30,832 nt of DNA from the IMG/VR virus record IMGVR_UViG_3300028653_000300, positions 1 to 30,832 of that record. One strand, written 5' to 3'. Under the pieces are notes generated by a model. The model was given only the letters and a program-made list of their open reading frames with translations, did not search any database and was not told the origin of the DNA. Position 1 is the stretch's first letter; the number at the start of each line of letters is the position of its first letter. Below, piece after piece: positions 148 to 28,861 of the stretch. The translations under genes were made by a program, and so were the position numbers. The DNA comes from a virus.

Positions 148-798
148 ATGAAACTTGGACAAGGATACGCAAAGGGATCAGCAGCCGAAGTTGAGGTTGC
201 TGGTCTCTGCGACAAGTGGTACAACTTACCAAAGAAGACTTTCTGGCGAACTCACGCAAGTGGCGCGATGCCTGACGAACCAGGTGACATCTACTCACGT
301 CAAACCCATCTGACGGGTCCGTTACCGTGGATGATAGAGGTCAAGCATATCAGAAGTTACGACCTTCTGATGGACGTTGTCAACCATCGATTTCCTCACC
401 CACAACTTTACGGATGGTTGGCTGAGATGACTTGGCAACAGCAAGACTATATTAAGCGATACGAAAAGGTACCAGGAATACCACCTCGTCGCTGCATTCG
501 GTTACTAGTCTTCAAACGAAACTTCGGACCAGGTTTCTGGGTTGGATTCTATCGTGATGAACTGCTACCGCCCCGGATAGCTAATGGGGCGTCGGGTACG
601 TATGGGTGGGATCAATATCTCCTCGTACGACAGTATATTACTATTCCAATTCCTGCGATCGATGTTGAAGTGCCTGGTCAGTTGAATGACAAGAAGAGTC
701 CGAAGCGAAGAGTAAATCTCGACGCAGGATCGTTTGTTGTAACTGAGTGGAAGACGTTCATACAGATTTTCACTGATCCAAAGAACCAAATCCTCTGA
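148..798 (+). CDS. Putative PD-(D/E)XK-type nuclease (resolvase/RecB-like)
   Basis: The 216-residue protein has the layout of a PD-(D/E)XK nuclease core: an N-terminal helix with acidic residues (E14, E16), a PGD motif (D47), then a beta strand with E64-V-K66 in the sequence MIEVKH. In that superfamily the Asp, Glu and Lys bind metal and cleave the phosphodiester bond. Phage members act as Holliday junction resolvases, exonucleases or restriction-like enzymes, and which applies cannot be told from motifs. It starts three bases after the preceding gene, and its TGA overlaps the ATG of the Rad50-like gene by one base, which places it in the recombination operon. The C-terminal third has no recognised domain. 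The fold call is moderately sure and the exact activity is inference. Confidence 0.55.
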   Translation: MKLGQGYAKGSAAEVEVAGLCDKWYNLPKKTFWRTHASGAMPDEPGDIYSRQTHLTGPLPWMIEVKHIRSYDLLMDVVNHRFPHPQLYGWLAEMTWQQQDYIKRYEKVPGIPPRRCIRLLVFKRNFGPGFWVGFYRDELLPPRIANGASGTYGWDQYLLVRQYITIPIPAIDVEVPGQLNDKKSPKRRVNLDAGSFVVTEWKTFIQIFTDPKNQIL

Positions 799-2000
799 TG
801 CTCAAGAAACTCCACATACAGAACTTTCAATCCCATCGTGACTCCACAATTGAGTTCTCTCCGTACCTTACTATTATTGTCGGTCAGAACGATAACGGGA
901 AGAGTGCGATATTCAGGGCACTGATGAAAGTCATTCGAAACGTTCCTGACGGCACGGGTTTTGTTTCGTGGTGGAAAGACGTAACTGAAACGAACATCAC
1001 ACTTGAAACTGATGCTGGCACGGTTCTCAGGTCAGTGAATCCGAAGAAGGGAACTCCAGGAAACCGATACGTTGTAAACAGTATCGAGTATGCGGGTTTC
1101 GGAAAGAACATTCCGCCAGACGTCGGACCAATTGCTGAGACAGCCAATCCGATTGTATTCGGAGACGTATCACTGGACTTGAACTTTGGTGGACAGCACG
1201 GTGGCTTGTTTCTGATCGATGATACCGGATCAGCTCGAGGAAAGGTTCTCGGAAAGATTGTTGGAGTCGACGTTGTTGGACGAAAGCGACAAATTGTAGA
1301 GTCTGAACGACAGTCGAACGAACGTGAAATCAAACGTGTGACTCTCCAGGTTGAAACTCTCGAGAAGGAACTAGCAACTTATCCAGACGTCGAAGCATGG
1401 GTCGGTTGGGTTAGCGATATGCAACGATTCGTTCCTGAACACCGTGCAAAGGAGAAGCGAGTCCAACGAATGGGCGAGATCAATATCAACCGGCTTGTAT
1501 TGCAGGATTCTCAAGAGGCTGTGACTTATTTGATTGCTCAAGCCGGATCGGTATCTCAACTGTCTACCTCTCAACTTCAAATGAAGGTTGGACAACTTAA
1601 AACTCGGCAAAACGTTAGAGAACGTATAGTTCAAGCTCAGACAAGAAAAAATTCCATTGTTATCCCTTCTCTCCAGTTAGTTCCGACCGACCGTGTTATG
1701 ATGTTACAGGCACAGTTGATCGTTGCTCGGTCACTGAGCACAAGATATAAGACTTTACAAGCAAAACGTGTTGAAGTTCCTGAAGTTGCCGTTCCAACTG
1801 TGGAAGCAGCACGAAATGTCGGAAGTCAGTTGCAGCAACTAGCAACTTTACGGGACAAGCACAAACGGTTGTTTGGAATGAGAGTAGAAGGTGTCAGAGC
1901 ACTATCCACTGCAAATATCGATTGCAGTGTAGCGGTACTCGAACTAGAAGCAAGACGAACAGAACTTGGAGTATGTCCAACATGTGGAAAACCATTCTAA
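798..2000 (+). CDS. sbcC: Rad50/SbcC-like ATPase, N-terminal half ending at the zinc hook
   Basis: The first 30 residues match the Rad50/SbcC/gp46 N-lobe, with a Walker A loop GQNDNGKS at residues 29-36 and a plausible Q-loop glutamine near residue 133 (NFGGQHGG). From about residue 165 to 390 the sequence is mostly helical and charged, like the ascending coiled coil. The protein ends ...GVCPTCGKPF, a CPxC zinc-hook motif at residues 393-396, and stops four residues later. No Walker B or signature motif is present. Those occur in the gene at 3463-4110, after the Mre11-like gene. In known Rad50 proteins both lobes sit in one chain of many hundreds of residues, with the hook in the middle. Here the chain stops at the hook apex, so the ATPase would have to assemble from separate polypeptides (inference). 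The ATG overlaps the stop of the nuclease gene (TGATG). Confidence 0.85.
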   Translation: MLKKLHIQNFQSHRDSTIEFSPYLTIIVGQNDNGKSAIFRALMKVIRNVPDGTGFVSWWKDVTETNITLETDAGTVLRSVNPKKGTPGNRYVVNSIEYAGFGKNIPPDVGPIAETANPIVFGDVSLDLNFGGQHGGLFLIDDTGSARGKVLGKIVGVDVVGRKRQIVESERQSNEREIKRVTLQVETLEKELATYPDVEAWVGWVSDMQRFVPEHRAKEKRVQRMGEININRLVLQDSQEAVTYLIAQAGSVSQLSTSQLQMKVGQLKTRQNVRERIVQAQTRKNSIVIPSLQLVPTDRVMMLQAQLIVARSLSTRYKTLQAKRVEVPEVAVPTVEAARNVGSQLQQLATLRDKHKRLFGMRVEGVRALSTANIDCSVAVLELEARRTELGVCPTCGKPF

Positions 2001-2197
2001 AGTTTTTTGGTAGAGAAGAGGAAGTTCATTATCCACCATCGCAATTTGTACTACAACACTTTCCCAGTGCCGAGTGTATTCACTATCCAAGCGATGGCAA
2101 ACCGTATAGTATTGTAGCTGAACATGTTGCTATTTGTTCTGGAGTATCAGAAGCGGATGCATGGCTTCGAACGGAAGCGTTTCTTAAAAGTAGGTAG
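1973..2197 (+). CDS. Small unknown protein overlapping the Rad50 N-half
   Basis: A 74-residue open frame begins inside the last codons of the Rad50-like N-half and ends three bases before the Mre11-like start. ATG 1973 and ATG 1982 are both possible. GGAG at 1967-1970 is better spaced for 1982, which would give 71 residues. The sequence (FFGREEEVHYPPSQ..., later ISEADAWL-like helical stretch) has no motif I recognise. Its position between the two parts of the repair complex suggests it could be an accessory subunit, but that is guilt by association only. It fills the gap between genes and keeps the tight spacing of the operon, which favours a real gene. Confidence 0.5.
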   Translation: MSNMWKTILKFFGREEEVHYPPSQFVLQHFPSAECIHYPSDGKPYSIVAEHVAICSGVSEADAWLRTEAFLKSR

Positions 2198-2200
2198 AAG

Positions 2201-3151
2201 GTGAAACTAGGCTTTTTTACAGACGTTCACGCAAGACTTGACAATCCGAGTTCAAGGTCGGATTGGTTTCCGAAGACTATCATCGAGAAACTCGAACGAG
2301 TCGGTGAGATATTCAAGAACGAGGGTGTGCAGTTCGCTTTGAACGGTGGTGACACCACTCACATTCCTTCTCCGTCTCTGTCACTAGTGAACAGACTGAC
2401 GAGAGTATTCAAGGACTGGCAGATACCGATCATTGCAATTACCGGTAGTCACGACGTTCACGGTTATCAGCAGTTGACGCTTGAACGAACAGCAGTAGGT
2501 GAACTTGTTGCTGCAGGTCTCTTTCATATGGTTGGTTGCACTAACTATCCAAAGTACATCGACCTTGACAACAAAGTCAGAGTCTATGGAACAGGGTACA
2601 TGCACGCATTCGACGCTCGAGAGTTTTCTGTTCTCGATCCTGAACACAACAGCAAACTTATCATTCAGATGATTCATGCGGATCTACTCGACAAACCAGT
2701 TCCGTGGCAGTACGTTTTGGTGAACCAAGTCTATACTAACGCACAACTCGTTCTCAGTGGACATTATCATCCAGGCTGGAAGGAAGGCATCGTTTCTGGA
2801 ACCTCGACGTTCTTTAATCCAGGAAGTATCGGTCGCATTGAACGTGGTCCGTACCGAATACCTCGTGTGATGATTATTGATACCAAACCTTCCAGACCTG
2901 GAGTTCTTTACGACTACAAGTTTGTAGACGTACCTTGCGATCCGCATCCGTTCACTGAGAAACCATTGGACAAGGTTGAAGAGATGACGATGGACATCAA
3001 TCAGTTCGTCTCACTCCTGGATCTTGCTCAAGTTGAAATTGTCGACGTGAAAGGAAAGATTCCGATACTCGGAAGAGAGCTTGAGTTGTCTGAAGAAGTA
3101 ATCGACAGAACTATTCAGTTGCTCGAACGACCAGAAAAGAAGGAGAAGTAG
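2201..3151 (+). CDS. sbcD: Mre11/SbcD-like calcineurin-type nuclease subunit
   Basis: The 316-residue protein carries the metallophosphoesterase motifs in order: D8-x-H10 (FFTDVH), GGD at 49-51, GSHD at 82-85 (usual GNHD with Asn replaced by Ser), H159 in MIHADL, and GHYH at 187-190. These residues bind two metal ions in Mre11, SbcD and phage gp47, which cut DNA ends with the Rad50/SbcC ATPase. Residues after about 230 are a short tail rather than a long capping domain. The start is GTG with an AGGTAG/AGAAGG purine stretch just upstream. It lies between the N-half and the C-half of the Rad50-like protein, so the three parts are made from one mRNA. The Asn-to-Ser change in motif III is unusual, because that Asn normally helps bind metal. 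Confidence 0.88.
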   Translation: MKLGFFTDVHARLDNPSSRSDWFPKTIIEKLERVGEIFKNEGVQFALNGGDTTHIPSPSLSLVNRLTRVFKDWQIPIIAITGSHDVHGYQQLTLERTAVGELVAAGLFHMVGCTNYPKYIDLDNKVRVYGTGYMHAFDAREFSVLDPEHNSKLIIQMIHADLLDKPVPWQYVLVNQVYTNAQLVLSGHYHPGWKEGIVSGTSTFFNPGSIGRIERGPYRIPRVMIIDTKPSRPGVLYDYKFVDVPCDPHPFTEKPLDKVEEMTMDINQFVSLLDLAQVEIVDVKGKIPILGRELELSEEVIDRTIQLLERPEKKEK

Positions 3152-3152
3152 T

Positions 3153-3479
3153 ATGAACCAGGTACCTGCACCACCACCAAATCATTCGTTTCCTCAAACG
3201 TTTCCGTCACCACCTACTGTTGATCCTGCAACTGAACTCAATCAGTTGCAGAAACGAATCGATACGGTCAAGACCGAAGTAACTCGTCGAGAGACTGAAC
3301 TGAAGTCAATCGACCAGCAGTTGACCGATCTGAGAGCAGAAGTCAAGACTATCGGAGTGAACGACTTCGATGAGTTGGATGCGTCGATTATCAGACTCGA
3401 GTCAGAAATTGCTACAGAGAAAATCTCAATCGAGTCGTCACTTGTTGCAGCGGAGAGAGCACTTGGACTTGCTCAATAA
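3153..3479 (+). CDS. Coiled-coil protein, probable detached arm of the Rad50-like ATPase
   Basis: This 108-residue protein has a Pro-rich start (about residues 5-24) followed by an almost uninterrupted amphipathic, charged helix to the end (LQKRIDTVKTEVTRRETELK...). It is preceded by a good AAGGAG site and lies directly between the Mre11-like gene and the Rad50 C-half. In a normal Rad50 the zinc hook is followed by a descending coiled coil and then the C-lobe; this piece has the composition and position of that descending arm. Its last codons overlap the next gene in a different frame, so a programmed or sequencing frameshift could join the two. It contains no Cys, so it does not carry a second half-hook. 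That it is a coiled coil is clear; its role is inferred. Confidence 0.65.
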   Translation: MNQVPAPPPNHSFPQTFPSPPTVDPATELNQLQKRIDTVKTEVTRRETELKSIDQQLTDLRAEVKTIGVNDFDELDASIIRLESEIATEKISIESSLVAAERALGLAQ

Positions 3480-4110
3480 CGTGTTCGAAACGCGACTGAA
3501 CGCTGTATCCGGAAAGGTGCAGTATATCAAAGGACTTCGTGACAAAGTTCTGGCGGATCGACAACTAGCGACTGAAGCATTGAACAGTCACAAGCACGAA
3601 GCCGACGTGTTAGCTGGAATGAAGCGACTGTTGGAAGCACTGTCTAAGGTGTCGCAGCAACATATCAAAAACTTCGTTGAACCGTTGATTACCGAAGCAT
3701 TGGAGTTCGTGTTCAATAAAGGTTACAAGTTCGGAATCGAGTTCGAAGAACGAAGAGGTCAGACGGAAGTCGACTTCGTATTCAAGACTAAAGACGGTAA
3801 CGTAACGATTGGCGAGTTAACAGAAACAAATGGTGGTGGCGTTGTCGATGTTGCAGCACTTATCCTTCGTATTGGTATCGCACACGTTCTCAAGGTTCAA
3901 GGACCAATCTGTGCAGACGAGCCAGGATCGTTTGTGGACGAGGTTCACAGTTCTCGGTTTGGTTTGCTCGTTCACGAAATCTGTCACAAGTTCAACAGAC
4001 AAATCGTTGTCATTACGCACAGTCAGTCGTTCGCGGGTTACGGTGATAGGATCTACTCAGTGTCACAAAGTTCTGACGGTATTTCTCACGTTACAGAGGG
4101 AATAGTATAA
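3463..4110 (+). CDS. sbcC: Rad50/SbcC-like ATPase, C-terminal half
   Basis: The frame opens well upstream, but the best start is TTG 3463, preceded by GGAGAG at 3452-3457; TTG 3469 and GTG 3481 are alternatives. The resulting 215 residues begin with about 65 residues of coiled coil. A signature-like loop follows (TNGGGVVD, N123), then Walker B with ICADEP (D152, E153), a D-loop (SFVDE) and an H-loop His (VVITHSQ, H186). These are the features of the Rad50/SbcC/gp46 C-lobe, which is inactive without a Walker A lobe; that lobe is encoded at 798-2000. The signature reads NGGG rather than the usual SGGE/SGGQ, as I recall in some phage homologues. The gene overlaps the coiled-coil gene before it by 17 bases, and its stop overlaps the start of the exonuclease gene. 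Confidence 0.82.
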   Translation: MDLLNNVFETRLNAVSGKVQYIKGLRDKVLADRQLATEALNSHKHEADVLAGMKRLLEALSKVSQQHIKNFVEPLITEALEFVFNKGYKFGIEFEERRGQTEVDFVFKTKDGNVTIGELTETNGGGVVDVAALILRIGIAHVLKVQGPICADEPGSFVDEVHSSRFGLLVHEICHKFNRQIVVITHSQSFAGYGDRIYSVSQSSDGISHVTEGIV

Positions 4111-4766
4111 TGAACAGACTCAGGATAACATTCGACATCGAAACAATTCCGAATTCAGAATGTAACACTAACGAAGTACTAAGCGAGGAACTGACACGAC
4201 TTCGTGCACTAACTGAGAAGACACCAGGTCGAGAGTTTCTACCTGCAGTTCATCCTGCATTCTGTCAGGTTGTCTGTATCTGTGCAAAGATAACAAACGA
4301 GACAACAGGACATGTAACTTTGAAAAACTTTGCTGATGCAGACGAGAAGAAAGTTCTCGAGGGTTTCTCTGAAATGCTGCGGAATATCCAATCGAAGGAC
4401 TACTTTACAGTATTCGTCGGTTGGAACTCACTCGACTTCGACGCACCGATTATTCGACTCAGAAGTCTGAAGCACGGTGTTCAAGTGACGGGTGGAGCTT
4501 GGCAATACTTTGTGAATCTGAAACGATTCGCAAAGGAACCACACTTTGACGTTATGCAGTGGTTAGCAAACTGGCAGAGCAACGCAAAACTAAGTCTTCG
4601 GACTGCAGCAGCAATGTTCAACTTACCAGACCCAAAGGCAGGACTACTTCCGGATCAGATTCCTCAAGCAATTGCAGACGGTCACATGCAAGACGTGATC
4701 GACTACTGTTGGGGCGACGTGACGACAACTGATGCATTATACTTAAGGGTAAAGGACGGGTTATAG
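4110..4766 (+). CDS. DnaQ-like (DEDDy) 3'-5' exonuclease
   Basis: The 218-residue protein has the three exonuclease motifs of the RNase H-fold DEDD superfamily. Exo I is FDIET (D9, E11), Exo II is WNSLDFDAPII (D111), and Exo III is Y199-x3-D203 (YCWGD), which makes it the DEDDy type. The overall spacing resembles the predicted PolB-like exonuclease family rather than the short epsilon subunit. It would degrade single-stranded 3' ends using two metal ions, either for proofreading with a separate polymerase or for end processing together with the Mre11/Rad50 module it is coupled to (its ATG overlaps the preceding TAA). There is no polymerase domain in this gene or in the window. The family call is strong and the partner is inferred. 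Confidence 0.85.
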   Translation: MNRLRITFDIETIPNSECNTNEVLSEELTRLRALTEKTPGREFLPAVHPAFCQVVCICAKITNETTGHVTLKNFADADEKKVLEGFSEMLRNIQSKDYFTVFVGWNSLDFDAPIIRLRSLKHGVQVTGGAWQYFVNLKRFAKEPHFDVMQWLANWQSNAKLSLRTAAAMFNLPDPKAGLLPDQIPQAIADGHMQDVIDYCWGDVTTTDALYLRVKDGL

Positions 4767-8209: not shown

Positions 8210-8779
8210 ATGGGATACCAAATTCACAAGGACTTTACCTGGGATATGGGTCATCGTATCAGTCAACATGGTGGCAAATGTTTTTCGCCACATGGTCATT
8301 CCTACCGGGCAACTGTATATTTATCAAACAGTTCTCTGGATTCAAAGGGAATGATTTTAGACTTTTACGATCTGACTCAAACAGTTGCACCGATTGTCGA
8401 GGAACTTGATCATGCGTTCTTGCTATACGAGCATGATATCGTGATGTCGTGGTTCTTCTCGCAAATGTCGAATGCACGTGGTATTTTCGATAATGGTGGA
8501 ATCGGAGTTCAGATTGATGCTAGGTTTAGCGTTGCATCTAAAGATACGACTCCGGTATCTGTTGCACCTATTGGCGGTTCACTTGGGATCGCAAACGATG
8601 ATCTCCCGCGATTGTTCAAAATAAAGAAAGTTCCGTTTGAGTCCACAGCGGAGAACATTGCGAAATACATCTTTGATCGAGTCAAGGAAACGATACCAAA
8701 CGTTTGCAAAGTCGATGTTTGGGAGACTCCGAAGTGCTGTGCAACTTACGAACCCGTACCTGATCAACCACCAGTATAA
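8210..8779 (+). CDS. queD: QueD/6-pyruvoyltetrahydropterin synthase-like enzyme
   Basis: The fold is recognised from FTWDMGHRISQHGGKCFSPHGHSY (residues 9-32). H15, H28 and H30 are the zinc ligands and C24 is the catalytic Cys. GMILDFYDL and ELDHAFLL follow, then STAENIAKYIFDRVKE and a late Glu in DVWETP. QueD converts dihydroneopterin triphosphate to 6-carboxytetrahydropterin, the second step from GTP to preQ0 and queuosine; the related PTPS makes pyruvoyltetrahydropterin. Phages use this pathway to place 7-deazaguanines in DNA against restriction, or to supply queuosine for tRNA. QueC, QueE, FolE and DpdA are not in this window, so the product's fate cannot be seen. At 189 residues it is longer than bacterial QueD (about 120), because of an insertion around residues 90-135. 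A CAGGAGA site precedes the ATG. Confidence 0.85.
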   Translation: MGYQIHKDFTWDMGHRISQHGGKCFSPHGHSYRATVYLSNSSLDSKGMILDFYDLTQTVAPIVEELDHAFLLYEHDIVMSWFFSQMSNARGIFDNGGIGVQIDARFSVASKDTTPVSVAPIGGSLGIANDDLPRLFKIKKVPFESTAENIAKYIFDRVKETIPNVCKVDVWETPKCCATYEPVPDQPPV

Positions 8780-9242: not shown

Positions 9243-9542
9243 GTGATCATCGATACAGCTAGCGGTTGGGGAGTTTTCAACGGACACTTTCTCAAACTCG
9301 TTCGAGAAGGTCGATATCTGTCACAAGAGCAGCTCGGCAAAGAGATTGGCGTCAGTGGTAGTACTATCTCAGTCTGGGAGAATGTTGACAGAACTCCTGG
9401 TCGTTCCTATCCGGACGCAAAGCAACTTCGTGAATTGTGTATGATTCTTCAAGTAAATCCGTTAGATTTCCTCTTTTTGGCTGACCAACCACTCATTACC
9501 ACTGTAGCTTCTAATACAACTGATATACCTCTCGAGTCGTAG
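9243..9542 (+). CDS. Xre/Cro-CI-type helix-turn-helix protein
   Basis: Residues 14-75 form a classic HTH_3 domain. An opening helix GHFLKLVREGRYL is followed by the turn SQEQLGKEIGVSGSTISVWEN, with recognition helix SGSTISVWEN, and by the two closing helices to NPLDFLFL. Such proteins bind short palindromes as dimers. The insertion DRTPGRSYPDAKQL after the recognition helix is slightly longer than usual. The remaining 20 residues have no dimerisation or peptidase domain, so it is Cro-sized rather than CI-sized. It starts with GTG directly after the preceding stop, with GGAG about seven bases upstream. It may act on the TTTGTGAC sites before its own operon, which has not been shown. Confidence 0.85.
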   Translation: MIIDTASGWGVFNGHFLKLVREGRYLSQEQLGKEIGVSGSTISVWENVDRTPGRSYPDAKQLRELCMILQVNPLDFLFLADQPLITTVASNTTDIPLES

Positions 9543-10683: not shown

Positions 10684-11850
10684 ATGTGGCACTCCTTTAA
10701 ATATCGGGCAAAACTTTCTAAAGAAACTGAAGCCAACTGCAATCAATGGATTGAGCAATGCAGAATCTTATACAATCTTGCCCTTGAACAACGAATCTCT
10801 GTCTACGACCAGAGTAAAAAATCTGTGTCTTACTTTAGTCAATCGGGTGAGTTACCAGAACTCAGAAAAGCTTTCCCTGAGTTCAAACAGGTGGATGCAC
10901 AGTGTTTATCGGATGTTCTTGATAGACTCGATAAAGCAACTCAACTATTCTTCCGACGAGTCAAAAGTGGCAGAGGCGAAGCAGGTTATCCTCGATTTAA
11001 GTCACGAGGTCGGTATAGTTCTTTCACGTTACTACAAAATAGTTGGAAACTCCGAGGTCGTTATCTGTACCTGAGAAATATCGGCAGACTGAAACTTTAC
11101 TTATCTAGACCTATTGAGGGTCGAATCAAAACTATCGATGTCAAACGAACATCAACAGGTAAATGGTTTGTTTCGTTCAGTTGCGATGATGTTGAACCTA
11201 GACAGTTTCCTGCTACAGATAAGTCTGTTGGTATCGACGTCGGTATCAAATCTTTTGCTGTAGACAGTGACGGTATCATTACACCGAATCCATTGTTTCT
11301 GAAGCAGTCACTGAAACAGTTGCGGGTCAGAAACAGATCACTGTCTCGAAAAGTAAAAGGATCCAACCGTAGAAAAACCACTAAACTTCAAGTTGCTAAA
11401 CTACACGAAAAAGTTGTCAATCAACGCAAAGACTTCTTGCACAAGACTGCAAATTACTATATCAACAACTACAAGTATATCGCTGTTGAGGACTTGAATG
11501 TTGCAGGTATGATTCGTAATCCTGGATTTTCAAGAAGTATTTCAGACAGTTCCTGGGGACTGTTCTTTCAGTTACTATCAGATAAAGCGGCAGAAGCTGA
11601 TCGGATACTAGTGAAAGTAAATCCCTATAATACAAGTCAACTGTGCTCAAACTGTGGAAGACTTGTACCAAAACTGTTAAGTGAACGTACTCACTCTTGT
11701 CCTCATTGTGGATTAGTCCTAGACAGAGATGAGAATGCGGCAAGAAACATTAAGCAACAAATGCTTGGGCAAAGCATGCAGACGTCAACTTCTACGTTAG
11801 AAGCTGTCTGTGGATCTCAGCAACTGAGAATGTCAACCGTCGAATACTAA
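10684..11850 (+). CDS. tnpB: TnpB-like RNA-guided nuclease (IS200/IS605 type), intact
   Basis: The 388 residues carry a full TnpB: the N-terminal HSFKYRAKL start, the wedge/helical part, then RuvC residues D185 (SVGIDVGIKSF), E269 (IAVEDLNVAGM) and D349 (DRDENAA). The zinc ribbon C321-x2-C324...C339-x2-C342 sits between the last two. TnpB proteins cut DNA guided by a short RNA from the 3' end of their own gene and help the element persist. No tnpA transposase is nearby. The gene sits six bases after one phage gene and 12 before the next, with no strong ribosome site of its own. Lys codons are 26 AAA to 6 AAG, against 7 to 10 in the upstream gene, which supports a foreign origin. It may still be a mobile insertion, or have been adopted by the phage. 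Confidence 0.93.
   Translation: MWHSFKYRAKLSKETEANCNQWIEQCRILYNLALEQRISVYDQSKKSVSYFSQSGELPELRKAFPEFKQVDAQCLSDVLDRLDKATQLFFRRVKSGRGEAGYPRFKSRGRYSSFTLLQNSWKLRGRYLYLRNIGRLKLYLSRPIEGRIKTIDVKRTSTGKWFVSFSCDDVEPRQFPATDKSVGIDVGIKSFAVDSDGIITPNPLFLKQSLKQLRVRNRSLSRKVKGSNRRKTTKLQVAKLHEKVVNQRKDFLHKTANYYINNYKYIAVEDLNVAGMIRNPGFSRSISDSSWGLFFQLLSDKAAEADRILVKVNPYNTSQLCSNCGRLVPKLLSERTHSCPHCGLVLDRDENAARNIKQQMLGQSMQTSTSTLEAVCGSQQLRMSTVEY
11761..11829 (+). ncRNA. Three tandem hairpins at the tnpB 3' end (candidate guide-RNA scaffold)
   Basis: Three stems follow one another inside the last codons of tnpB. Stem 1 is ATGCTT/AAGCAT with a 5-base loop (11761-11777). Stem 2 is CTTCTA/TAGAAG with loop CGT (11789-11803), extendable by CA/TG after one mismatch. 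Stem 3 is TCTCAG/CTGAGA with loop CAA (11815-11829). TnpB guide RNAs (omega RNA) arise from this place, and the guide lies just past the element's right end. TCAA at 11833-11836, a cleavage sequence in some IS200/IS605 elements, could mark that end. The RNA itself is inferred. Confidence 0.4.
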
Positions 11851-21091: not shown

Positions 21092-21731
21092 GGATTGCCA
21101 TATTCTTAGTTATTCACTTGAGAACGTTCCACAAGAAGTAGCTGATGCTCAAGCGAAGGTGTTCGCAAAGTTCGGCATACCTTTAGAACAACGCAGATAC
21201 CCAGTTGATTCCGAAGGTTGGGCACCATGGAAGAAGTGTGTCGATCAGGTCGATCAATGGGTCCGAGAGCAGTCTGGTTGTATTATTCTGGTAGACGTTG
21301 ACTGTATTCCACTCAGCCAGAAATGCATCACCGATACTTATTTATCAGTGATTCGTCGAAACTGGCTAGTTGGGCCCGCTCAACGTTGTGTTACTCCTGA
21401 GGGCCATGAAACTCAAACTTTAGTGTACGCTGGACCAGCAATGCTTGGATTCTCTTCCGATTTGTACGAACAACTGGATAAACCGACTTTGTTCTCTACC
21501 TCTGATACGGATGTTGGCGGTCTGTTTACTGTTCGTGCGCACAAACTTGGTATACCAGTCAGACTGTTGATGCCGACTGCGTGCGACGTCCCGAAGTGGA
21601 AGTTATACGGAGACAAACTAGAATTTGGTCTGGGAACTACGTTTGGTAGTTGTCTCTATCACGGATTCGAAGCTCGGAACGATGCGAGTAGGTTCCTAGC
21701 GAAATGTAAGCAAATTCTAAGCAAACCATGA
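21084..21731 (+). CDS. Glycosyltransferase-like protein with DVD motif
   Basis: The GTG start lies inside the end of the previous gene, with GAGG about ten bases upstream. The 215 residues contain IILVDVDCIPL (D71-V-D73), a metal-binding DxD in a strand-to-loop setting typical of GT-A enzymes. AGPAMLGFSSDLYEQL follows, then a late CLYHGFEA. No family number can be given. The overlap with both neighbours (8 and 4 bases) argues for production in fixed ratio with the giant enzyme that follows. Confidence 0.6.
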   Translation: MFKDCHILSYSLENVPQEVADAQAKVFAKFGIPLEQRRYPVDSEGWAPWKKCVDQVDQWVREQSGCIILVDVDCIPLSQKCITDTYLSVIRRNWLVGPAQRCVTPEGHETQTLVYAGPAMLGFSSDLYEQLDKPTLFSTSDTDVGGLFTVRAHKLGIPVRLLMPTACDVPKWKLYGDKLEFGLGTTFGSCLYHGFEARNDASRFLAKCKQILSKP

Positions 21732-24700
21732 AAAAAGTTGCTATTGTTATTCCTACCTACAATCACTGTGAAGATCTCCTCAAACCGTGTATTGAAAGTG
21801 TTCTGAAGGAGACGACCTATCGATACCCAGATCTCAAAATAATTGTTGTAGCGAACGGTTGTGACGATAATACTATTGAGTATATCCAAAACCTCGCTCT
21901 CGAAACCGAAGAGACGATTCAACTAGTGATAGTTTCTGAAGCAATCGGTTATACCAAAGCGACTAATATGGGTGTTCAACGAGCGATGACACAAGGTTAT
22001 GACGTCATTGTACTGTTGAACAACGACAACATCATTCAGGGTTACTGGGGAAAGAATAAGTGGTTAGACGAACTGCTCAAACCGTTGGAAGATCCAACTA
22101 TTGGAATGACCGGACCGAAGCAACTCGTCTGTGACGTAACCGGGCGCGACTTTCTGATCTTCTTCTGTGTCGCAATCAAACGCAAGATGTTCGAGAAGTT
22201 CGGGTTACTCGACGAGGTATTCAGTCCGGGTTTCGGAGAAGATATCGATTTCTGTATTAAGATGCAAAACGGCGGATACAAACTCCAAGAAGTCGGAACG
22301 TGGCAAGATGAACATCACTACGCTGGCAACTTTCCGATCTATCACAAGGCTGAGGGAACTGTTCACGGACTCAGTAACTGGGACGAGATAAAGAAACGAA
22401 ACAAACAGACTCTACGAGATCGTTATACATTGCCCGAGGGTTTCTTCACTGATGCAGATATCAAAGCATATCGAAAACTATTCGAGCGACTTCCAGAGAA
22501 CGCAAAAGTTGCTGAGATCGGGTGCCTACTTGGTCGGTCTATCTGTTCTGTTGCAGATATCATTCGGCGAAAGAATATCTCCTTTGCACTGATTGATGCA
22601 TTTCAATACGACCATCTGATATTCGGAAAGTATACTAGTCAGGATGTCCAGGCGAATCTTAGAAAGAATCTTGACAAATTCGGTATTCGTGATCCGTCTG
22701 TTGTTATTACTGGCTTTAGCAACGAACAGTCTCGAACGTTCACGAACTACTCGTTCGACCTGGTCTTTCTCGACGGCGATCACTCACCTGAGGGTGTTAA
22801 ACTGGATATCGACTGTTGGATGTCGAAACTGAAACCTGGTGGTATTCTTGCAGGTCACGACTTCGAGTTTCTTCCGGAAGTAGCTACTGCTGTAGAAGAG
22901 AAACTCGGTCGACTCGTTCAGAACGATGGCGAAGTGTGGTTTGCGAATAATCCTACTACTCGAAAAGAGACAACGATTCAGAAAGAGACGAAACGCATGG
23001 TCTATGACTGTTTTCCGTTCTTCGACGAGCTCGATCTGCTCGAGATTCGGCTGCACGAAATAGGAGACTTAGTCGACAAGTTCGTTTTGGTCGAGTCTCG
23101 ATTTACTCACAGTGGCAAACCAAAACCGCTATACTTTGCTGAGAACAAGCACAGATTCGAAGAATACTTACCGAAGATTGTTCATATCGTTGTAGATCAG
23201 TTACCGCAGGGTTCAGAATACGGTGACCATTGGGCCAGAGAGCGATTTCAACGTGAACAGTGTCAATCAGCATTGAAAGACTGTCGTGATACAGATATCA
23301 TTATCATCTCCGACGTTGACGAAATTCCTCGAGGACCGAAACTGTGGGAAGTGCTGCAAAAACCTGTAATAGATATAGTTGCTTTTGATCTAGTGCAGTC
23401 GAATTACTACATGAACTACGTTACTGAAGAGTATCTTGAGTATCCGTGGGTAAAGATAACTTCCTATGGTCTATTCAGAGCACTAGGTGGAGCGTGCGCT
23501 GTTCGGTATTCTGGTTGGAACGAGGCAACTAAGCATATCGACAAGAACCAAGTAACCTTTGTTGAGAGTGCCGGCTGGCATTTCTCGTTCGTCGGCAGTC
23601 TGGATATGATCAAACTGAAGATCGAGTCGTGGGGCCATCAGGAATACAACACACCTGAGTTCAAAGCGAAACTGGAGCAACGAATCAAGGATCATCTTGG
23701 TATCTATAGTAGCAACTTGAAGTACAAGGTGATAAACGCAGATCGTGCAACGATGCCTTGGCATATGCTCGACCACTTAGACAGATTCGATCAGTATATC
23801 TACCACCCTGAAGTTGCCCCTCGAAAAGTGTTTGACTGTTTCACGTTCTTCAACGAACTCGATCTGCTCGAAATCAGGTTGAACGAACTCGACGATGTAG
23901 TCGATAAATTCGTGCTGGTTGAAGCACCAGTAACTCATAGTGGCAAACCGAAACCGTTGTACTTCGAGCAGAATAAGCAGAGATTCTCGGAGTTCCTACC
24001 GAAAATTATTCACGTTGTCGTGGACGATATGCCGACTGTTGCTGAACCAGGGAAGTCTCTGAATCTGACACGAGAAAACTTCCAACGGAACGCAATCGTT
24101 CGAGGGCTGACTGACTGTGGGTGGGACGACATCGTCATGATCTCTGACGCGGACGAGATTCCAAACAAGAAGGTTCTGTCGAACTACGACACCGCAATTG
24201 GCCCATGCAACCTCAGTATGTCACTTTACTACTACTTCTTCAACTGTTATACTGAAGCGCCGTGGTTGGCACCGAAGATTGTTCCTGGTCACATGATTCA
24301 TTCGACTCAGATCGAAACTATTCGTAACGGACTGAATCTGCAACGAACGTTGAAGAATGGTGGTTGGCACTTCAGTTACCTTGGCGGAGTCGACGAAGTT
24401 ATCAACAAGTTGCAGTCGTTCTACCATCAGGAGATGGTTACCGACCAAATGATGGACCGTAGGTATTTAGAGCGGAAGATACTTGCTGGAGAAGATATCT
24501 GGGGACGTCCAGAAGTTCCTTTGAAGTTTGTAGCGCTTGACAATACGTATCCTCGTTATATTCTCGACAATATCCGCAAATACTCGAAATATGTAAGAGG
24601 CAAACGGATCTCCATCGTGATTCCCACGTATAATCACTGTGAAGACTTATTGAAACCGTGTATTGAGAGTATTCTGAAGAATACTGATATGTCTAACGTG

Positions 24701-27700
24701 GAAGTGATTATCGTAGCGAATGGTTGCAAGGACGGTACAAGGGAGTACGTGACGAGTCTCGGCGAACCATTTAAGTTGCTGTGGTTTGATGATGCAATCG
24801 GTTATACTAAGGCAACAAATGCCGGTATCAAAGCAAGTATCGGCGAGTACGTACTGCTGATGAACAATGACTGTGTCGTGTTGGATTTCTGGGCGAAGAA
24901 CAAGTGGTTAGATGCTCTCAGTGATCCAATGGACGAATGGCCGTTGATTGGTGTAACAGGAACGATTAGGATTCATCATCAAGAAGTTGACGAAGACTTT
25001 CTCGTGTTCTGCTGTACGATGGTTCGTCGAAAAGTGTTTGACGAAGTCGGGTTGTTGGACGAAGTATTCAATCCTGGCGGTGGAGAAGATACTGACTTCT
25101 GTATCAAGACGAGAAGTGCTGGCTACAAGGTTCATCTTATTGACTGTTGCAAGAATGATACGGTAGAAGGGACAATGTGGAAGTCTCTATATCCTCTTTT
25201 CCACGCTGGTGAGAAGACGTTTCACGAACTGCCAAAGGATATCTTCGATTGGAATGTTGTGAAGAACAACAGAATACTGTTGGAACGTTACGGACGCAGA
25301 CCAAAAGTCTCTATCATCATTCCAACGTACAATCACTTTGACGACTGTCTTAATCCGTGCTTGCAGAGTATTCTGAACTTCACGGATCTCTCAGATATCG
25401 AGATAATTATCGTGGCGAATGGTTGCACAGACGATACGAAACTTCTCGTTGACTGGCCAGTCGTAATGGGCTGGGTCAGAGTGCTGTGGTTCAGAGTGCT
25501 GTGGTTCGACGAACAACTCGGATTTCCTAAAGCAGTTAACGCAGGTATCAGAGTTGCTCGAGGTGAACGTATTGTTATACTGAATAACGACGCAAAACTG
25601 CTCGACAAATCATGGCTTCCGAAACTGCTTGCACCAATCGAACAGGGTCTTGCTGAATTAACTGGGCCTCAGTTGATCCCGTACGAACGGTATAATGCTC
25701 AGGCACTGTTCTTCTTCTGTGTTGCGATCAAACGTGAAGTCTTCGAGAAGATCGGATTGCTCGATCCTGCGTTTGGAATCGGTCGAGGAGAGGATATCGA
25801 CTTCTGCATCAGGGCAGCAAAGGCTGGTTATAGAATGGTTCAGGTCGGTGATACAGTTGATAAACTGAAGCAACATGGAACGTTCCCGATTCAGCATAAC
25901 GCAGGCACTACTTTCACGGCACTCCCGAACTACAATGAGATAGCTGACTTGCACATGGATATTCTGGATCGGAAGTATCGGCCGAATCGAGCAGTCCACA
26001 TCATCACTCCAACGTATAACAGGCACACCCAACTCGAGCAACTGATGGCTGAGATATTACATCAGACCTACAGTAACGTTCATGCGTGGATATGTGCAGA
26101 CGGTCCTGATCCTGAAGTCGAAACTTTGGTGAATCACTTCAACGACGAATCACACGGTAACGTGAAGTTTCACTACTCGTGTATGGCGAAGAAGGAAGGT
26201 TTCTGGGGCGCGCCGATTCGTAGAAGTCTACTCGAGGGAATACCTGATGACGGTGCTGTTTGTTTCGTTGACGACGATAATCAGATCTACCCAGAGTACT
26301 GCGAGAAATTGGTAGCCGGAATTACAGATCTCATTGGTATTACGTATTGCAATATCCGGATGAATAGTCCGTTATTTCCTCCGAAGCATGTGGTACCGGG
26401 TCATGATTGTCTTGGACAATTCGAACGTGGCAATATCGATAGTCTTAACTTTATGGTTCGAACGGATGTTGCGAAGAAACACAAGGATGCCTGGTTAAAT
26501 GAGTACTATCACGACTACAACTTCCTTATCGAATGCGCGAAGGAAAATCTTGCTCTGAGCGTCTACATTCCTGACATTCTCGGTGAACATGGGCGAGACG
26601 ATGTCAGAACAACAGTGGTCGAACCATCGAAACCAGTAGCAGTCGAAGTGAAACAGAAACCGTGCGAGCATCTGAAAGGTCAACCCGAGTATCAGGAAAT
26701 AATCGAAGGTAATACTTATCATATCGAACCAAGTGACTTCAAGGACAAGTACGTTGTTGATATCGGAGCAAACATTGGGCTAGTGTCGCTACTTGCAGTG
26801 GAGTACGGAGCGAAGAAAGTCTTTGCTATCGAACCAGACAAGGGCAATTTTGCTAACTTACAGCGTAACACAGAACCATATTCACAGATTCAGCTATTCA
26901 ACATGGCTGTGAACGACGGTACGTCTCGATATGTCACTATGATAGACGCAGGTGTGACGGCCAGATCCATGAATTCCGATCAAGGAGTTCTTGCTATTAC
27001 GCTGTCTAATTTTGCAGGAATATATCTTCCAGAAGGTGTACAAGATGCTGTTCTGAAGATCGACTGTGAGGGTGCTGAACACGCAATTCTTCATTCCACC
27101 CCAAAAGAAGTAATCAGACGATTTAGCATCATATTTTTGGAGATCCACGGAAACAGACCTGGGCAGGTGCAACACAAGCAATTTCCGTACGACCATGATG
27201 AACTGCTAAGTTATGTACAAGGCATGGGGTATGCAGACGTAATGCAGACGTACTTCTTTGTGGACTATCCTCAAGCTGACGGTACAAAAGTAAGGGTAGA
27301 TAGTTTTGCAACGATACACAAACTTGTCCGTGTAGTAGAATCTATGAAACCTCTTGGACCTCCTATTCTATTCGTCGATGACGAGAAACAACCTGAGTGG
27401 TACGGACTACGTAAAGAAGACGTATTATTTGCTGATACGGTGTCCAAAGCTGAAAAGTTTGCAGAGGAGCACAAGTCCTTCGTCTTATACCTAGATCAGG
27501 ACATGGGGGCAAAGGATGGTAATCCGACGAAAGGCGTTTTGCTTCTGCAATGGTTTGTTGAACGACACTACGACATCAAGGAAGTTGTCTGCATCTCACG
27601 GAACTATTTCGGTGTACTCGAAATAGAAGCCGTATGCAAAGGGTGCAACATAAAGTATTCGCACAGATTTCCGAATCAACAGGAGATGCAGACGTTCAAT

Positions 27701-28861
27701 CCTCCTGAACCGTCAAAACCAATACCGGAACCACCACTTCCACACGGTCCGGGTGTCGACTTTGTCGATGACAGACCGATCGTTACGTCAATGCCCGTTC
27801 CAAGATTCGACGAACCACAAGAAGATCGCTCAGTTACTGCAATGATTTCGACGAAGGATCGATACTTCTCGACTCTTCCGTTAGCGATTGAAAGTATCGC
27901 TCTTCAGACGTTCAAACCAAAAGAACTTGTGATTTTCGACGACGGGGAGGGAAAAGATCTGCGACCGATTCCGTTGTACCAGAATCTGCTCGCTCTCCTT
28001 TCACGAAAAGGTATTGCGTGGCGAATCTTGTTCGGTGCTAAGAAGGGTCAAGTTTTGAATCATCAAGCAATACTAGAGATGGCAACGACACCGTTTGTCT
28101 GGCGACTGGATGATGATAACGTTGCTGAAGAACATACGCTAGAATACTTAATGTCTTCAATGAAACCTGGAGTTGGTGCTGTCGGCGGTTTAGTGTTAGA
28201 TCCTAAACTGCCTCCAACTCCTTCGAGTTTAGCATCCAGCAAGATCGAGGATATCTATCTTGGGCTGAACACGCAATGGTATCCTCATGAGAAAGAAGAC
28301 GTGGTTGAGGTTGACCATCTCTACAGCACCTTCGTCTACAGACGAGAGGCTGGGAAACACGGTTATCAGAAGGATCTGTCTCCTGCGGGTCACAGAGAGG
28401 AAACCATGTTCACCTACGAGATGAAACGTGCTGGATGGAAACTATTGGTCAATCCAAAAGCCATCACATGGCACGTCAGAGATCCTCAAGGTGGTATTCG
28501 AAGCAACGCACAGCAACAGTTCTGGCAGAAGGACGAGCAGATCTTTTCTGGTAAGATGAAAGAATGGGACGTGAAACCGACGAACTTCAAGTTCATCATC
28601 TTGGATAACGGTCTCGGTGACCACATAGCGTTCTCTACAATTCTGCCTGAACTTCGAACTCGATTTGCAGGGTCGACTATCGTTATTGCTGCTTGCTATC
28701 CAGAAGTGTTCGAGAAAGAAACCGACCTGAGGCTCATTTCGATCGCTGACGCAATCGGGATGTTCGGTAATCTTAGCGGATACGACATCTACCAATTCAT
28801 GGGCGACCAAAACTGGAAGGGGACGCTACGTGACGCGTTCCGTGCAATGTATCTGAGGTAA
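21728..28861 (+). CDS. Giant 2377-residue fusion of glycosyltransferases and methyltransferases
   Basis: One uninterrupted frame holds at least eleven domains. Approximate residues: GT2 (1-235, IPTYNH at 9-14); class I methyltransferase (236-420, AEIGC at 262, FLDGDH near 347); GT17-like (424-695, DVD at 529-531); GT17-like (699-955, DAD at 807-809); GT2 (959-1190); GT2 (1193-1420); GT2 (1422-1635, VDDDN near 1515); FkbM-type methyltransferase (1640-1865, VVDIGANIGL at 1675, KIDCEGAE at 1777); receiver-like domain (1880-1975, D1884/D1885, LDQDMG at 1922-1927) with a Pro-rich linker; GT2 (2035-2275, DDD at 2128); and the N-lobe of a GT9 enzyme (2287-2377, NGLGDH). GT2 enzymes transfer sugars from nucleotide sugars, GT17 resembles N-acetylglucosaminyl transfer, FkbM is a methyl transferase, and GT9 includes heptosyl transfer. 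No membrane segment or signal is seen, so it acts in the cytoplasm. Confidence 0.88.
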   Translation: MKKVAIVIPTYNHCEDLLKPCIESVLKETTYRYPDLKIIVVANGCDDNTIEYIQNLALETEETIQLVIVSEAIGYTKATNMGVQRAMTQGYDVIVLLNNDNIIQGYWGKNKWLDELLKPLEDPTIGMTGPKQLVCDVTGRDFLIFFCVAIKRKMFEKFGLLDEVFSPGFGEDIDFCIKMQNGGYKLQEVGTWQDEHHYAGNFPIYHKAEGTVHGLSNWDEIKKRNKQTLRDRYTLPEGFFTDADIKAYRKLFERLPENAKVAEIGCLLGRSICSVADIIRRKNISFALIDAFQYDHLIFGKYTSQDVQANLRKNLDKFGIRDPSVVITGFSNEQSRTFTNYSFDLVFLDGDHSPEGVKLDIDCWMSKLKPGGILAGHDFEFLPEVATAVEEKLGRLVQNDGEVWFANNPTTRKETTIQKETKRMVYDCFPFFDELDLLEIRLHEIGDLVDKFVLVESRFTHSGKPKPLYFAENKHRFEEYLPKIVHIVVDQLPQGSEYGDHWARERFQREQCQSALKDCRDTDIIIISDVDEIPRGPKLWEVLQKPVIDIVAFDLVQSNYYMNYVTEEYLEYPWVKITSYGLFRALGGACAVRYSGWNEATKHIDKNQVTFVESAGWHFSFVGSLDMIKLKIESWGHQEYNTPEFKAKLEQRIKDHLGIYSSNLKYKVINADRATMPWHMLDHLDRFDQYIYHPEVAPRKVFDCFTFFNELDLLEIRLNELDDVVDKFVLVEAPVTHSGKPKPLYFEQNKQRFSEFLPKIIHVVVDDMPTVAEPGKSLNLTRENFQRNAIVRGLTDCGWDDIVMISDADEIPNKKVLSNYDTAIGPCNLSMSLYYYFFNCYTEAPWLAPKIVPGHMIHSTQIETIRNGLNLQRTLKNGGWHFSYLGGVDEVINKLQSFYHQEMVTDQMMDRRYLERKILAGEDIWGRPEVPLKFVALDNTYPRYILDNIRKYSKYVRGKRISIVIPTYNHCEDLLKPCIESILKNTDMSNVEVIIVANGCKDGTREYVTSLGEPFKLLWFDDAIGYTKATNAGIKASIGEYVLLMNNDCVVLDFWAKNKWLDALSDPMDEWPLIGVTGTIRIHHQEVDEDFLVFCCTMVRRKVFDEVGLLDEVFNPGGGEDTDFCIKTRSAGYKVHLIDCCKNDTVEGTMWKSLYPLFHAGEKTFHELPKDIFDWNVVKNNRILLERYGRRPKVSIIIPTYNHFDDCLNPCLQSILNFTDLSDIEIIIVANGCTDDTKLLVDWPVVMGWVRVLWFRVLWFDEQLGFPKAVNAGIRVARGERIVILNNDAKLLDKSWLPKLLAPIEQGLAELTGPQLIPYERYNAQALFFFCVAIKREVFEKIGLLDPAFGIGRGEDIDFCIRAAKAGYRMVQVGDTVDKLKQHGTFPIQHNAGTTFTALPNYNEIADLHMDILDRKYRPNRAVHIITPTYNRHTQLEQLMAEILHQTYSNVHAWICADGPDPEVETLVNHFNDESHGNVKFHYSCMAKKEGFWGAPIRRSLLEGIPDDGAVCFVDDDNQIYPEYCEKLVAGITDLIGITYCNIRMNSPLFPPKHVVPGHDCLGQFERGNIDSLNFMVRTDVAKKHKDAWLNEYYHDYNFLIECAKENLALSVYIPDILGEHGRDDVRTTVVEPSKPVAVEVKQKPCEHLKGQPEYQEIIEGNTYHIEPSDFKDKYVVDIGANIGLVSLLAVEYGAKKVFAIEPDKGNFANLQRNTEPYSQIQLFNMAVNDGTSRYVTMIDAGVTARSMNSDQGVLAITLSNFAGIYLPEGVQDAVLKIDCEGAEHAILHSTPKEVIRRFSIIFLEIHGNRPGQVQHKQFPYDHDELLSYVQGMGYADVMQTYFFVDYPQADGTKVRVDSFATIHKLVRVVESMKPLGPPILFVDDEKQPEWYGLRKEDVLFADTVSKAEKFAEEHKSFVLYLDQDMGAKDGNPTKGVLLLQWFVERHYDIKEVVCISRNYFGVLEIEAVCKGCNIKYSHRFPNQQEMQTFNPPEPSKPIPEPPLPHGPGVDFVDDRPIVTSMPVPRFDEPQEDRSVTAMISTKDRYFSTLPLAIESIALQTFKPKELVIFDDGEGKDLRPIPLYQNLLALLSRKGIAWRILFGAKKGQVLNHQAILEMATTPFVWRLDDDNVAEEHTLEYLMSSMKPGVGAVGGLVLDPKLPPTPSSLASSKIEDIYLGLNTQWYPHEKEDVVEVDHLYSTFVYRREAGKHGYQKDLSPAGHREETMFTYEMKRAGWKLLVNPKAITWHVRDPQGGIRSNAQQQFWQKDEQIFSGKMKEWDVKPTNFKFIILDNGLGDHIAFSTILPELRTRFAGSTIVIAACYPEVFEKETDLRLISIADAIGMFGNLSGYDIYQFMGDQNWKGTLRDAFRAMYLR
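25478..25507 (+). repeat. Perfect 15-base tandem duplication inside the giant glycosyltransferase
   Basis: The 15 bases AGAGTGCTGTGGTTC occur twice head to tail (25478-25492, 25493-25507). The result is RVLWFRVLWF in the third GT2 domain, where the sister domains have a single LLWF/RVLWF-type strand. It keeps the frame and adds five residues. Identical copies suggest a recent slippage event or an assembly artefact. Confidence 0.85.

Follow-up and report, generated by a model that had tools for sequence, protein, structure and literature searches.

A Probable Naturally Split Rad50/SbcC, Broken Just Past the Zinc Hook and Accompanied by an Mre11/SbcD Partner, in Phages and Bacteria

Introduction

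The virus record IMGVR_UViG_3300028653_000300 of IMG/VR (positions 1 to 30,832; this whole stretch of 30,832 nucleotides is referred to as the window) encodes at positions 798-4110 an N-terminal half (N-half) and a C-terminal half (C-half) of the ATPase Rad50/SbcC in separate genes, together with an Mre11/SbcD-like nuclease and a small coiled-coil protein, referred to as K. An earlier note, made from the sequence of the window alone, had proposed a Rad50/SbcC that is divided at the zinc hook and has Mre11 encoded between its two halves, and this proposal has been borne out by relatives in both viral contigs and bacterial chromosomes. The locus most probably (roughly 85%) represents a naturally split Rad50/SbcC with an Mre11/SbcD partner, in which the N-half and C-half would form one ATP-binding cassette (ABC) head, K would probably be the distal part of the arm, and two assemblies would dimerize through the zinc hook. 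This reading is carried by the parts and their homology, the complementary motifs of the halves, the break at the hook, the linkage of the genes, fusions of Mre11 with the N-half, and near mutual exclusion with canonical SbcC.

Anatomy of the Split Locus

The four genes lie on the + strand. The N-half (798-2000, 400 aa; identified from the open reading frame (ORF) list and family profiles) contains the Walker A motif GQNDNGKS at residues 29-36, the Q-loop glutamine Q133, a predicted helical arm at residues 157-390, and the hook CPTC at residues 393-396. Its C-terminus reads GVCPTCGKPF and is followed by TAA, with the hook four residues before the stop, so the claim that the Walker A half ends at the hook apex is correct. 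The Mre11/SbcD-like nuclease follows (2201-3151, 316 aa, GTG start; identified by profiles), then K (3153-3479, 108 aa), which consists of two helices joined by a G[IV] loop and is the candidate distal descending arm, and finally the C-half (3481-4110, 209 aa from GTG 3481), which comprises a 77-residue helix and ATPase lobe II. The frame of the C-half is open from an ATG at 3370 that overlaps the K gene, and GTG 3481, one base past the K stop, is probably the start because the homologues are 200-220 aa long. Within the C-half are a signature-like TNGGG (residues 116-120), a Walker B motif ICADE (D146/E147), and an H-loop ITHS (T179/H180), which places these motifs, as had been stated, in a separate gene beyond a complete Mre11-like gene.

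Family profiles assign the N-half to AAA_23 and AAA_15 (1.7e-13 and 3.7e-12) and to PHROG 16465, named ‘exonuclease’ (2.8e-31), and the C-half to PHROG 15167, named ‘ATPase’ (2.5e-33), with a weak match to SbcC phrog_77; the middle gene matches Metallophos and SbcD phrog_100 and is a calcineurin-like phosphoesterase with the metal motifs I-V of Mre11/SbcD. Both lobes of Rad50/SbcC are thereby represented, the N-terminal one by Walker A and the Q-loop, the C-terminal one by Walker B, the H-loop, and a signature that reads TNGGG rather than LSGGQ in the window, and the CxxC that ends the predicted arm is invariant in the aligned family and predicted to bind zinc. The ordinary arrangement, with both lobes in one chain and the hook mid-chain, is absent from the window and from all relatives except distant fused outgroups, and because the lobes are not on one polypeptide the system is classed as a split variant of Rad50/SbcC and not as an ordinary member.

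Conservation of the Break in Viral Contigs and Phages

Three scans of IMG/VR yielded about 165 loci, which were annotated with profiles built in this analysis; scanning the viral contigs with the single N-half protein of the window gave no match, and alignments were required. Complete N-half ORFs number 158 and fall into 104 sequence clusters. A CxxC motif lies no more than 30 residues from the C-terminus in 102 of these clusters, compared with 59 of 1020 other ORFs of at least 250 aa in the same loci, and the two clusters without it are Microbacterium phage Magritte and the fused outgroup Lumi. Across an alignment of 78 N-halves, residues G29, K35, Q133, C393, and C396 are invariant; by this alignment, the hook cysteines are conserved as strictly as the Walker A lysine. 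In the C-half family, D146/E147 are invariant, T179/H180 are conserved at more than 90%, and GGG of the signature is kept. The Mre11 residues D8, H10, D51, H84, H159, and H190 are invariant among 46 sequences, and position 83 is N in 31, Q in 13, and S in two, including the window. Furthermore, a rough tree of both lobes places all split forms apart from the three fused outgroups used and gives locus L010 (labels in L denote individual loci) as the sister of the window. The finding that would have spoken for damage, namely a fused gene in relatives and a lesion here, came out the opposite way: the relatives are split at the same place.

The gene order of the window, N-half, Mre11, K, and C-half (N-M-K-C), is the commonest among 123 non-redundant loci (50) and is followed by N-K-C-M (25), M-N-K-C (17), and an Mre11-N fusion preceding K-C (6); other orders are partial or rarer. 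The four genes are linked in the great majority of these loci. Of the 152 loci that have a C-half, 147 also have a homologous K gene, and fused outgroups account for two of the five exceptions. K lies at most 60 nt upstream of the C-half gene in 67 of 110 loci. Neither N-K nor K-C fusions were seen. Mre11 and the N-half form a single ORF in six non-redundant loci, with the hook still at the C-terminus. Fused ORFs of this kind (707-798 aa, hook C-terminal) are present in L029, L031, L046, L054, L090, L093, and L105, and in L105, K and the C-half are separate genes downstream of the fusion.

Split genes are also found in reference phages. The N-half of Bacillus phage vB_BboS-125 is gp32 (471 aa), which ends in CPLCEQTHKGGGC and is followed by an AP2-domain gene, the coil gp34, the C-half gp35, gp36, and an Mre11 gene lacking annotation. 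The latter is a complete Mre11-like gene at 22426-23394 of NC_048735.1 (L002:9232-10212). AP2-domain genes are of a type frequent in homing endonucleases. In Microcystis phage Mvi-JY20, the genes follow the order of the window, namely an N-half (with CSQC close to its end), Mre11, a coil, and a C-half; Tunturiibacter phage Tunturi_5 has an N-half (CGKC near its end), a coil, and Mre11; and the uncultured phage LR745208 has Mre11, a coil, a sliding clamp-like protein (assigned by eye), and a C-half. Bacillus phage BM15 and Xylophilus phage Lumi have ordinary fused genes.

Split Rad50/SbcC in Bacterial Chromosomes

A first scan of genomes with the N-half alignment gave no match, and a scan of species genomes with the C-half alignment gave 43 loci. 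The chromosomal split loci are L177-L219, including L191 of Tissierella pigra, L185 of Fervidicola, and L204 of Peptoniphilus. An M-N-K-C cluster, with the hook 21-25 residues before the end of the N-half, is present in Tissierella, Anaerosalibacter, Anaeromonas, Soehngenia, Peptoniphilus, Fervidicola, Thermovorax, and Thermosediminibacter. In Tissierella and Fervidicola the cluster lies between recA and rny, and in Peptoniphilus after recA (three loci, neighbours named by eye); these surroundings are ordinary housekeeping ones. Bacilli (Sutcliffiella, Paenibacillus, and Brevibacillus) share the N-K-C-M order of Bacillus phages and have a canonical SbcC in addition. In L204 (Peptoniphilus timonensis), Mre11 appears at 3309-4287 as two overlapping ORFs of 89 and 242 aa, by frameshift or sequencing error.

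A sample of 150 genomes from the order to which Tissierella pigra belongs contained the N-half in 84, the C-half in the same 84 and one more, and canonical SbcC, taken as PF13558 over the cut-off, in 49. The N-half and canonical SbcC overlap in one genome of the 150 (Fisher p=6e-23, a value that overstates independence owing to shared ancestry), and the split form seems, from these gene contents, to replace canonical SbcC near-completely in this order of Clostridia. The gap between N-half and C-half was computed for 23 genomes of one order; in 21 of them it measures 239-312 nt, which fits K. No full-length redundant fused Rad50 was found with TIGR00618 in the tested carriers of Tissierellales and Thermosediminibacterales, this model being insensitive and its weak hits being other ABC proteins. 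A sample of the class contained the C-half in 21 of 291 genomes.

Structure of the Halves and Length of the Arm

As proposed, both halves are related to Rad50. In profile searches of the PDB, the N-halves match Rad50 (E 1.8e-22), the C-halves match best the C-terminal chain of P. furiosus Rad50 (E 4.3e-18), and the Mre11 genes match P. furiosus Mre11 (E 1.3e-17). The AlphaFold2 model of the C-half of the window (mean pLDDT 95.4) is a single 77-residue helix with lobe II, and its best Foldseek matches are the C-terminal lobes of SMC and Rad50. The model of the N-half (mean pLDDT 82, pTM 0.46) has Rad50 as the top Foldseek match; VIA-align returns the heads of SMC, RecF, and Rad50 over residues 1-195 (Z 10-12.6), which supports a modeled ABC head fold without, taken alone, distinguishing Rad50 from the others. 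The arm of this N-half is modeled as five helices with loops in an unreliable arrangement.

Where the arms are shortest, the ascending arm (147-161 aa) and the coils of K and the C-half taken together (150-174 aa) are of similar length, which is what completion of the descending arm by K would predict. Across the family, arm lengths cluster near 156, 203, 240-260, 306, and 352 residues, to which shared ancestry contributes; the steps look like the addition of whole units. Four of five groups show a strong internal arm repeat of 47 residues (z 13-15; about 5 in single members). In the window (43) and Tunturi_5 (38) the repeat is weak or differs, and it is absent from the arms of two canonical SbcC, BM15, and Lumi. 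Arms with this repeat include those of L083:1425-2987, L191:4213-5667, and L030:7989-9056.

Proposed Mechanism and Its Implications

In the proposed mechanism, the N-half would provide ATPase lobe I, the arm, and the whole zinc hook as a C-terminal tail, and the C-half would provide the 77-residue helix and ATPase lobe II, so that the two might form one complete ABC head like the separate P. furiosus Rad50 fragments in crystals. K, as the distal descending arm, would probably extend the C-half helix as far as the hook. Dimerization of two such assemblies would occur at the heads via ATP and at the tip via zinc held by two CxxC tails, and Mre11 at the base would process DNA ends. Physical assembly, zinc binding and dimerization by the C-terminal tails, the place of K, and end-processing activity are what we infer from the gene data; a single complex of three chains and Mre11 is favored by the Mre11 plus N-half fusions and the co-occurrence of the halves. 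In phages, the role would be in recombination and replication, and in Tissierellales and relatives the split form would be the likely housekeeping SbcCD.

We tentatively suggest, at less than even confidence, that this Rad50 lineage of diverse phages, which in Tissierellales and relatives would also be the housekeeping SbcC, is a three-piece protein, with a free C-terminal hook, 47-residue arm units, and a separate coil, and that the break is kept for a function such as arm opening, exchange of K, or change of length, unlike known Rad50/SMC proteins. Rad50/SMC proteins are thought to need one continuous folded-back chain, and a large, diverged lineage whose chain is covalently interrupted at the hook and inside the arm would be a natural test of transmission along the arm. 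Furthermore, a likely SbcC is identified for bacteria seemingly without one, unlinked phage annotations of ‘exonuclease’ and ‘ATPase’ are explained, and short, separately expressible pieces become available for structural work.

Alternative Explanations

The possibility that the break stems from a lesion, from erroneous sequencing, or from a rearrangement introduced when this contig was assembled was rejected because the split is conserved in independent genomes: the window is a single metagenomic virus record of unknown completeness, but a break with its own stop just past the hook recurs in 102 of the 104 diverged clusters as well as in reference phages and numerous bacterial genomes, and the chance of an artefact is negligible. 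Restoration of a full-length chain by trans-splicing through a split intein or by frameshifting was rejected on gene anatomy and is scarcely credible. Inteins or introns interrupt some phage genes, but in the window frameshifting cannot bridge the halves, which are separated by Mre11; the N-half stops right after CGKPF and carries no intein domain, and neither K nor the C-half has an intein match. It is also very unlikely that the N-half and C-half act independently, each in a role of its own and with no common head; they are separate genes and sometimes stand apart (a sliding clamp-like gene intervenes in L008, and they are distant in Magritte), but each is without half of the ATP-binding motifs and matches its corresponding Rad50 fragment in the PDB profiles, the two co-occur in 84 of 84 genomes, and in chromosomes they form one gene cluster.

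More serious, if still the less favored possibility, is that K is a separate subunit (a clamp, adaptor, or DNA-binding coil) packing on an N-half arm that is itself a self-contained repeat rod. The stepwise arm lengths beside a nearly constant K and C-half, the 47-residue repeat in many arms and not in the fused controls tested, and the five-helix prediction for the arm of the window all speak for such a rod, but the near equality of K plus the C-half helix with the shortest arms and the placement of K no more than 60 nt ahead of the C-half gene, as in 67 of 110 loci, speak against it. The earlier suggestion that the coil between the halves is the descending arm is upheld by length in the short-armed members and only in these.

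Several observations weigh against a split Rad50/SbcC with K in its arm. The arm of the window is 236 aa long compared with 180 aa for K plus the C-half coil, and in long-armed members the arm reaches 302 aa compared with 154-202 aa; because the ascending arm exceeds its partner in these members and the window, a plain two-stranded coil does not suit all members. The signature motif of the window is degenerate (TNGGG), and its Mre11 motif III (2444-2455) reads GSHD instead of GNHD, with Ser for Asn. In Tunturi_5, no C-half was found near the N-half, and in Magritte (L004, L005), the N-half is without CxxC and the C-half lies far off in the genome; the hook is possibly lost in this phage.

Relationship to Known Systems

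Archaeal and thermophile Rad50 (P. furiosus and M. jannaschii) resembles the split form in both ATPase lobes by profile and fold, in the CPxC hook, and in the Mre11 partner. P. furiosus Rad50 has been crystallized from separate halves, as the PDB chain lists also show, and in the constructs 1f2t, 1ii8, and 3qkr the N and C lobes are two separate chains like the halves described here. In native Rad50, by contrast, a single polypeptide carries the hook mid-chain, whereas here the break falls directly beyond the hook, and a third gene probably encodes the distal coil. The canonical SbcCD of bacteria (TIGR00618, PF13558) is comparable in its putative function and its place in the gene repertoire, where it and the split form are nearly mutually exclusive, but canonical SbcC is one long chain and two controls are without the 47-residue arm repeat. 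T4 gp46/gp47, BM15 gp105, and Lumi gp40 likewise represent a phage recombination ATPase with an adjacent Mre11-like gene, but there a single chain contains both lobes (about 630-690 aa for BM15 and Lumi).

The belief that the architecture was undescribed seems right for the open-access full-text literature, in which no description of a split Rad50/SbcC was found, with the qualification that pieces of it were already on record. PHROG 16465 (‘exonuclease’) and PHROG 15167 (‘ATPase’) hold the N-halves and C-halves separately, under names that neither link them nor indicate a split Rad50. In the SbcDC fusions of Bacillus phage 0305phi8-36 and Anaerostipes caccae, one P-loop segment was unobserved (PMC3175470, 2011); Mre11 is fused to Rad50 in these proteins, and the missing segment fits a fusion of Mre11 with the N-half only. 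The passages of that paper on these fusions report no separate gene for the missing half, but the K and C-half genes downstream of the fusion in L105 suggest that it is encoded separately. Passages on SbcC/SbcD in work on jumbo phages treat these proteins as near-universal and mention no such split (PMC7824862).

Other Genes in the Window

A 71-aa ORF (1982-2197, + strand) overlaps the end of the N-half gene and fills the gap before Mre11; it has no family match in Pfam or PHROGs. In the nearest relative, L010, the N-half ends at 9245 and Mre11 starts at 9269, which leaves no space for it, and this ORF is outside the conserved split system. Downstream of the split locus are a PolB-like 3′-5′ exonuclease and, farther on, a dUTPase, and the locus sits in a replication and recombination neighbourhood. 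A QueD-like 6-pyruvoyl-tetrahydropterin synthase (8210-8779, PHROG 2389) is possibly a DNA base modification gene, and a transposase gene (10684-11850, PHROG 506, TnpB/IS605-like) lies amid uncharacterised phage genes. A single ORF of 2377 aa (21728-28861) contains glycosyltransferase-like and methyltransferase-like modules in series, as judged by eye only.

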